From Belnapia moabensis DSM 16746 (GTDB lineage: Bacteria > Pseudomonadota > Alphaproteobacteria > Acetobacterales > Acetobacteraceae), in assembly GCF_000745835.1 (NCBI RefSeq), contig NZ_JQKB01000025.1:1-64000 (forward strand): a stretch of DNA of 64,000 nt, given 5' to 3'. The position numbers and the translations under genes are program-made. Shown one piece after another: positions 16,562 through 17,304 of this stretch; position 1 is the first letter of the stretch, and each line of letters opens with the position of its first letter. The notes under the pieces were generated by a model that saw only the letters and a list, made by a program, of their open reading frames with translations, was not told the origin of the DNA and did not search any database.

Positions 16562-16610
16562 TGCGGGCGGATGGCGGTGCCGGCCGCTGCCTGGAGGTGA
16601 TCCGAAGCCG

Positions 16611-17255
16611 ATGGCCACTTTCGTCATCCCAACATTGACGACCCGCCGCCTTATACCAAATCCCGTTAATCAGAACCCATACAGTAAAGCGGCCCGGTTA
16701 AGGACGGAGCGTGCTGCTGCGGGGCGCCCCGCCGCCGCCAATAGGTTGGGCTCACTGGGACTTGGTATTACCCTCCGCGCTCCCGTGGAAGGCGACTTCC
16801 CCGCCTACGAACGCCTCATGGCCTCCCCGCGCTCCCGGGGTATGGGTGGGCCATACGACACCAAGGCCGCCTGGGGCATGTTCTGTCACGACCTCGCCTG
16901 CTGGACGCTGTTCGGACATGGAGCGCTGATGATCGACCTCCGGACGTCCGGCGAGTGCCTGGGCCAAGTCGGCATCAGCCATGGCCCGCTGTTCCCGGAG
17001 AAGGAGCTTGGCTGGCTGCTCTACGCGTCAGCCGAAGGCTTCGGCTACGCGACGGAGGCAGCGGAGGCATTGCGGGACTGGTCGGCGCGGGCGCTCGGCC
17101 TCATCGGGCTCGTCAGCTACATCGCCCCGGACAACGGCGCCTCCATCAAGGTGGCCGAGCGTCTTGGCGCCACCCTTGACCCGAAGGCTCCGAGGCACGA
17201 CCCGGACGACCTCGTCTATCGCCACCGCCCTGGCGGTTCAGCTCGCTGCGCATGA
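16611..17255 (+). CDS. GNAT family N-acetyltransferase carrying an in-frame 117-bp insertion
   Basis: Acetyl-CoA-dependent N-acetyltransferase, RimJ/RimL-like group. After the start at 16611 (GGAGGTGA ten bases upstream) the protein reads MATFVIPTLTTRRL. The usual continuation TLRAPVEGDFPAYERLMASPRSR only resumes 39 codons later. The intervening residues 15-53 are encoded by a small inverted-repeat element. The rest, including the acetyl-CoA loop around EGFGYATEAAEALRDW and the FxxKELGWLLY region, is intact. Without the insertion the protein would be about 175 residues, normal for the family. The inserted peptide falls in the loop after the first strand, so activity may survive. A pseudogene cannot be excluded, but there is no frameshift or stop. 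Confidence 0.8.
   Translation: MATFVIPTLTTRRLIPNPVNQNPYSKAARLRTERAAAGRPAAANRLGSLGLGITLRAPVEGDFPAYERLMASPRSRGMGGPYDTKAAWGMFCHDLACWTLFGHGALMIDLRTSGECLGQVGISHGPLFPEKELGWLLYASAEGFGYATEAAEALRDWSARALGLIGLVSYIAPDNGASIKVAERLGATLDPKAPRHDPDDLVYRHRPGGSARCA
16651..16770. mobile_element. Miniature inverted-repeat element (MITE-like) inside the GNAT gene
   Basis: The left end TTATACCAAATCCC (16651-16664) and the right end GGGACTTGGTATTA (16757-16770) are inverted repeats matching at 12 of 14 positions. A direct TTA at 16651-16653 and 16768-16770 is a candidate target duplication, which leaves a 114-bp element at 16654-16767. It encodes no protein of its own. Near its middle is a perfect 14-base palindrome (16719-16732). 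Its left part is distinctly AT-rich compared with the flanking gene. Removing element plus one TTA restores R-L-T-L-R across the junction in frame. The responsible transposase is unknown and none is encoded here. Confidence 0.75.
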
Positions 17256-17304
17256 CCGGCCCGGGTTGAAACCGACCTTCCGCGATCGGCAGGCGCGGCT
17301 GTCA

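Follow-up and report, generated by a model that had tools for sequence, protein, structure and literature searches.

The question raised by this locus is how a gene for an acetyltransferase came to carry 39 additional codons, and whether these codons have been put to use by the protein. The window, that is, the whole stretch of 64,000 nucleotides that was analysed, holds at 16611 to 17255 on the forward strand a gene for a GNAT acetyltransferase (Acetyltransf_3) of 214 residues, the 39-residue insert included. The start at ATG 16611 is our choice, the open reading frame as listed beginning at GTG 16554, and from this ATG the frame stays open to 17255, straight through the insert. Membership of the GNAT group is indicated both by profile and by fold: PF13302 matches residues 53 to 187 with an E value of 1e-21 and 78.5 bits (cut-off 25.4), and the best match among solved folds is 2FSR, with 66% identity and an rmsd of 1.2. 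The closest homologue among the matches listed, at 75%, comes from Roseomonas harenae. The surroundings of the gene (window positions 16562 to 17304) place it between convergent genes for a chromate transporter and an HI0933-like protein.

The insert itself is delimited by repeats and by comparison with other copies in the genome. A MITE of 114 bp with imperfect terminal inverted repeats occupies 16654 to 16767 on the forward strand, its left end being TACCAAATCCC and its right end TTGGTA, and it is flanked by a target-site duplication of the triplet TTA, at 16651 to 16653 on the left and at 16768 to 16770 on the right. Altogether 117 bases have been added, equal to 39 codons, which correspond to 16653 to 16769 on the forward strand and, counted from ATG 16611, to residues 15 to 53, as placed by homologue comparison and by the structure model. 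The first-pass annotation of this DNA, which had located an inserted element with TTA repeats at 16651 to 16770 and had assigned to it 117 bases and residues 15 to 53, was right in these coordinates and numbers; the inverted repeats that it described are present as well, but they match at 11 of 14 bases (from TACCAA inwards) rather than at 12 of 14, and at 17 of 24. An inverted-repeat search of the insert returned arms of 28 nt at 71%. The element is short and multicopy, has no transposase gene, and possesses terminal inverted repeats and a target-site duplication, as is characteristic of a MITE; the triplet at which it lies is the sole TTA or TAA of the GNAT gene when the insert is left out. 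A function as RNA was considered and dropped: the window contains no Rfam match at gathering scores, and the MITE hairpin is not unusually stable (z of -1.37, with 19 of 200 shuffles equally good).

As had been predicted, the same genome contains other copies with these termini, 13 matches in total with that of the window, which range from 113 to 117 bp and of which one is cut by a contig end. Three copies, the window's included, are 100% identical over 114 bp, the remaining close ones being one at 100% over 113 bp, one at 98% and one at 99% that is cut by the contig end, and seven copies at 78 to 82% comprise six members of a 117-bp subfamily and one of 113 bp. The uninterrupted state of the gene was sought by scanning genome contigs with the part of the GNAT that follows the insert, and the best 80 of 175 relatives were kept. 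In 78 of these 80 homologous loci an RLxLR-like junction is uninterrupted, in keeping with the R-L-T-L-R junction foretold for homologues, the exceptions being L121, in which a stop lies directly before the match, and L138, which has no recognisable junction in that frame. The 39 insert residues, whose presence in homologues had been named as an argument against an insertion, were seen in none of the 80 loci (at L121 and L138, within the stretch compared), and among 60 genomes searched no GNAT besides that of the window bears the insert. Joining the two flanks gives a gene that continues across the junction as the homologues do. Thus, the TTA repeats, the 13 copies and the uninterrupted homologues support the presence of an in-frame MITE within the GNAT gene. 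Two contigs, C1 and C121, break off at copies of the MITE, which might evoke an assembly artefact at a repeat; such an artefact is extremely improbable at this locus, however, where the two flanks are parts of the same gene, joined at a single TTA in precisely the manner of the 78 homologous loci.

Concerning the distribution of the element, six of eight genomes of the genus match it at an E value of 0.001, one of them (G007) over 26 bp only, and at 1e-6 it is matched by 6 of the 299 genomes of the host family, five from the genus and one other, a count in which two candidates were scored per genome and copy numbers are lower bounds. In total, 25 near-full or contig-cut copies were found, of which 20 were tallied for target repeats: a matching TNA triplet (TTA, TAA, TCA or TGA) stands on both sides in 17 and the triplets are unequal in 3. 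The five copies outside this tally comprise two truncated at contig ends, C1 and C121, and three of genome G006 with unclear ends, two of which also look unequal. A blastn search of PLSDB gave no match to the MITE on plasmids. The family is apparently undescribed, though of a known kind: no paper on it was found in the open-access literature searched. The earlier remark that no description was known therefore holds within that literature, the phenomenon itself having already been described.

A candidate for the source of mobility is an IS of 1158 bp on contig C175 (L021:2464-3621), which has TACCAA termini and TTA on both sides. Its frames match HTH_33, HTH_32, HTH_29 and DDE_3, among others, and 3 of 10 plasmid records with DNA similar to it are annotated as IS630 family transposase. 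This IS contains two separate transposase frames and may need frameshifting. It resembles the window MITE in its left end, its TACCAA termini and its flanking TTA, its left 28 bases matching the window MITE at 24 positions and the 117-bp subfamily at 26, but differs in its length, in its transposase frames and in its right end, where only 11 of the 14 terminal bases agree. When up to 3 mismatches were allowed, a 22-mer of the left end matched at 15 places, MITE and IS ends together, versus 0 for the reversed control, and the right-end pattern of the MITE (up to 3 mismatches) matched only the 13 MITE copies, no IS with this right end being found in the genome. Right ends of the IS occur in 17 places; in the 12 of these that are listed as loci (with C175 among them), the next triplet is TTA or TAA in 10 cases and ATA in 2. 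IS630 elements duplicate TA. The TNA repeats at the MITE copies differ from this, and the IS630-type IS of C175 likewise lies between TTA repeats; no paper on an IS630 with a TNA target site was found in the open-access literature. Since the left end of the MITE resembles that of an IS630-type IS that also lies between TTA repeats, an IS630-type transposase is probably what moves the MITE.

The locus is thus very probably explained by a young MITE, most likely mobilised by an IS630-type transposase, that entered an accessory GNAT gene, duplicated TTA and left the frame open by chance. Being non-autonomous, this miniature element would probably have been moved in trans; it would have entered the only TTA/TAA triplet of the gene and duplicated it, and the gene would have stayed open on receiving 117 bp with one stop-free element frame. 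The insertion is identical at 114 of 114 positions to two other copies in the genome and hence appears to be recent. In-frame insertion follows simply when the length of the element and that of the target duplication are both multiples of three, and here 114 + 3 and 117 + 3 are multiples of three, one of six frames being open in the 114-bp sequence of the window and four of six in the 117-bp subfamily. Because the in-frame state follows from these lengths, an open frame alone is not to be read as domestication; it is a chance result and not evidence of use.

In this regard, the first-pass annotation had called the element domesticated, which would mean that selection retains the 39 residues for a new property that they confer on the enzyme. 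The open frame and the retention of the invariant core residues would fit such a role, but it is very unlikely for an insert that is identical to copies elsewhere in the genome, that occurs in one genome only of those searched, that is disordered in the model, and whose family displays no consistent third-position excess, and the word domesticated finds no support. Differences from the window copy are distributed nearly equally among the three codon positions (e.g. 8/6/8 and 9/6/8), some other pairs of copies being uneven either way (5/5/1, 5/3/7), and the lack of a consistent excess in the frame used here comes from few independent copies, which makes it a weak test. On this ground, coding selection on the MITE family was rejected. 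It is even less credible, although two copies lie in frame in proteins, that the family as a whole codes for a selected peptide in the manner of the Rickettsia elements, with that frame being the one used here: 18 of the 21 translated copies have this frame open, yet the copies share ancestry, the codon-position changes lack a consistent third-position excess, and lengths of 113 and 115 bp exist in the family.

What the insert does to the enzyme was approached with an AlphaFold model (45 sequences), a kind of prediction that does not report destabilisation, whose mean pLDDT is 81.3 and in which the core is confident and residues 14 to 49 and 211 to 214 fall below 50. Strand beta-1, at residues 53 to 56, corresponds to residues 17 to 20 in the model of the uninterrupted homologue L074 (mean pLDDT of 93.0). 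The GNAT core is accordingly predicted to be kept, with the insert as a disordered loop near the N-terminus and outside the confident core. The product would be a GNAT whose first 14 residues are parted from beta-1 by a largely unstructured stretch of 39 residues, with I53 taking the place of the leucine that begins this strand; the loop may be tolerated, and some enzyme activity may remain. By model equivalence, I53, the last insert residue, replaces the leucine opening beta-1 and G52 stands for an arginine; as neither this arginine nor this leucine varies among 44 aligned homologues, the change may cost activity.

An inactivation of the enzyme or of its expression, with the frame still open merely for want of time to decay, is a real possibility to which we give somewhat less than an even chance, and it is compatible with the recent-MITE explanation. 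It would suit the youth of the insert, identical as it is to other copies, and the parting of T-x-R-L (T11, R13, L14) from L55-R56, residues that in the aligned homologues adjoin one another and never vary. It would also suit the accessory nature of the gene: in the other seven genomes of the genus the GNAT-part matches listed reach at most 39% identity, and the four of these seven relatives that hold both flanking genes on the fetched stretch show no GNAT match in the interval, where the flanking-protein alignments stop about 30 to 45 bp from each other in three and about 590 bp in one. A single-gene, horizontal gain of the GNAT gene is probable. Against inactivation stand the core fold, predicted with high confidence, the position of the insert near the N-terminus outside this core, and the conservation of the protein, which retains all 36 columns found invariant when 44 of the 80 homologues were aligned, those ahead of the insert being displaced from the remaining ones. 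It is quite improbable that the MITE swapped the lead-in to beta-1, with insert residues forming the strand edge, the old N-terminus turned into a free extension and the enzyme active with altered properties after a very fast change.

The preferred reading, a recent MITE whose frame is open by chance, can also be set against the other copies in the genome: of the 13, two are shown to be in frame, one terminates a reading frame, three are found beside or between genes, C121 was judged to be out of frame and six are unplaced. The second in-frame case is the 117-bp copy C115b, within a DUF772 transposase which we take to be IS1182-like, and it is as expected from an element of 114 or 117 bp with a 3-bp duplication. 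The C115 protein reads VQF, 40 extra residues and SRLDC, whereas its relatives L165 and L164, the only two besides itself found among 40 genomes, pass uninterrupted from KVKF and KIKF to SATDC and SVADC. C121, in a frame of 383 aa, was tried as a third in-frame case and discarded, as the match to its three closest relatives begins only at about residues 55 to 61 and stops interrupt that frame in the nearest two; the frame may be the antisense of another gene.

In-frame MITE fusion is known in bacteria (Rickettsia, Neisseria, enterobacteria and Coxiella), and the window is a clear new example of it, as well as a clean illustration of how a peptide is added to a protein by a mobile element, with exact ends, a target duplication, identical copies and 78 uninterrupted loci. 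Passages in PMC10969869 and PMC2229807 describe the Rickettsia palindromic elements as in-frame insertions in protein genes, and the window MITE is like them in being a short palindromic element in frame in such genes; they differ in that the Rickettsia elements are in frame at high frequency, against 2 of 13 own copies shown to be so and no coding signal here. Correia/NEMIS elements of 107 bp and ERIC/RU appear in PMC2229807 as MITEs ending in TA whose open frames have become fused to other reading frames, those of transposase genes among them in the case of the 107-bp Correia type; these fusions resemble ours and the hosts differ. The 107-bp RUP of Streptococcus pneumoniae, which the same review (PMC2229807) presents as occurring in IS elements and as probably owing its movement to an IS630 transposase, is similar in both respects, but is given there with TA targets and as intergenic repeats, in contrast to the TNA targets and in-frame cases here. 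QMITE1 and QMITE2 of Coxiella burnetii, at times in frame within reading frames according to PMC5896051, are longer (150 to 400 bp) and have other direct repeats.

Six own copies were placed through family matches, including the three between or beside genes and two in one transposase gene. For the six unplaced, scans of some of the frames touching C40, C46 and C187 (against Pfam and NCBIfam) and C1 (against NCBIfam only) produced no placing match, that of C40 having an AsnC-type match below the cut-off and a weak PHROG match, and no frame longer than 71 aa exists at the element in C77 and C166. The transposase gene of C115 (L068:1068-2540) holds two MITEs of different subfamilies 55 bp apart, the second, of the 114-bp type and lying beyond C115b, ending the transposase frame. 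Family matches on adjoining stop-to-stop frames place the copies of C59, C42 and C54: the first lies between frames with TctC and MarR matches, the third where a WcbI-like frame starts or immediately ahead of it, and that of C42 (L062:979-1500) between a deaminase frame and a DUF3237 frame, where the left TAA repeat of the MITE is the stop codon of the deaminase reading frame.
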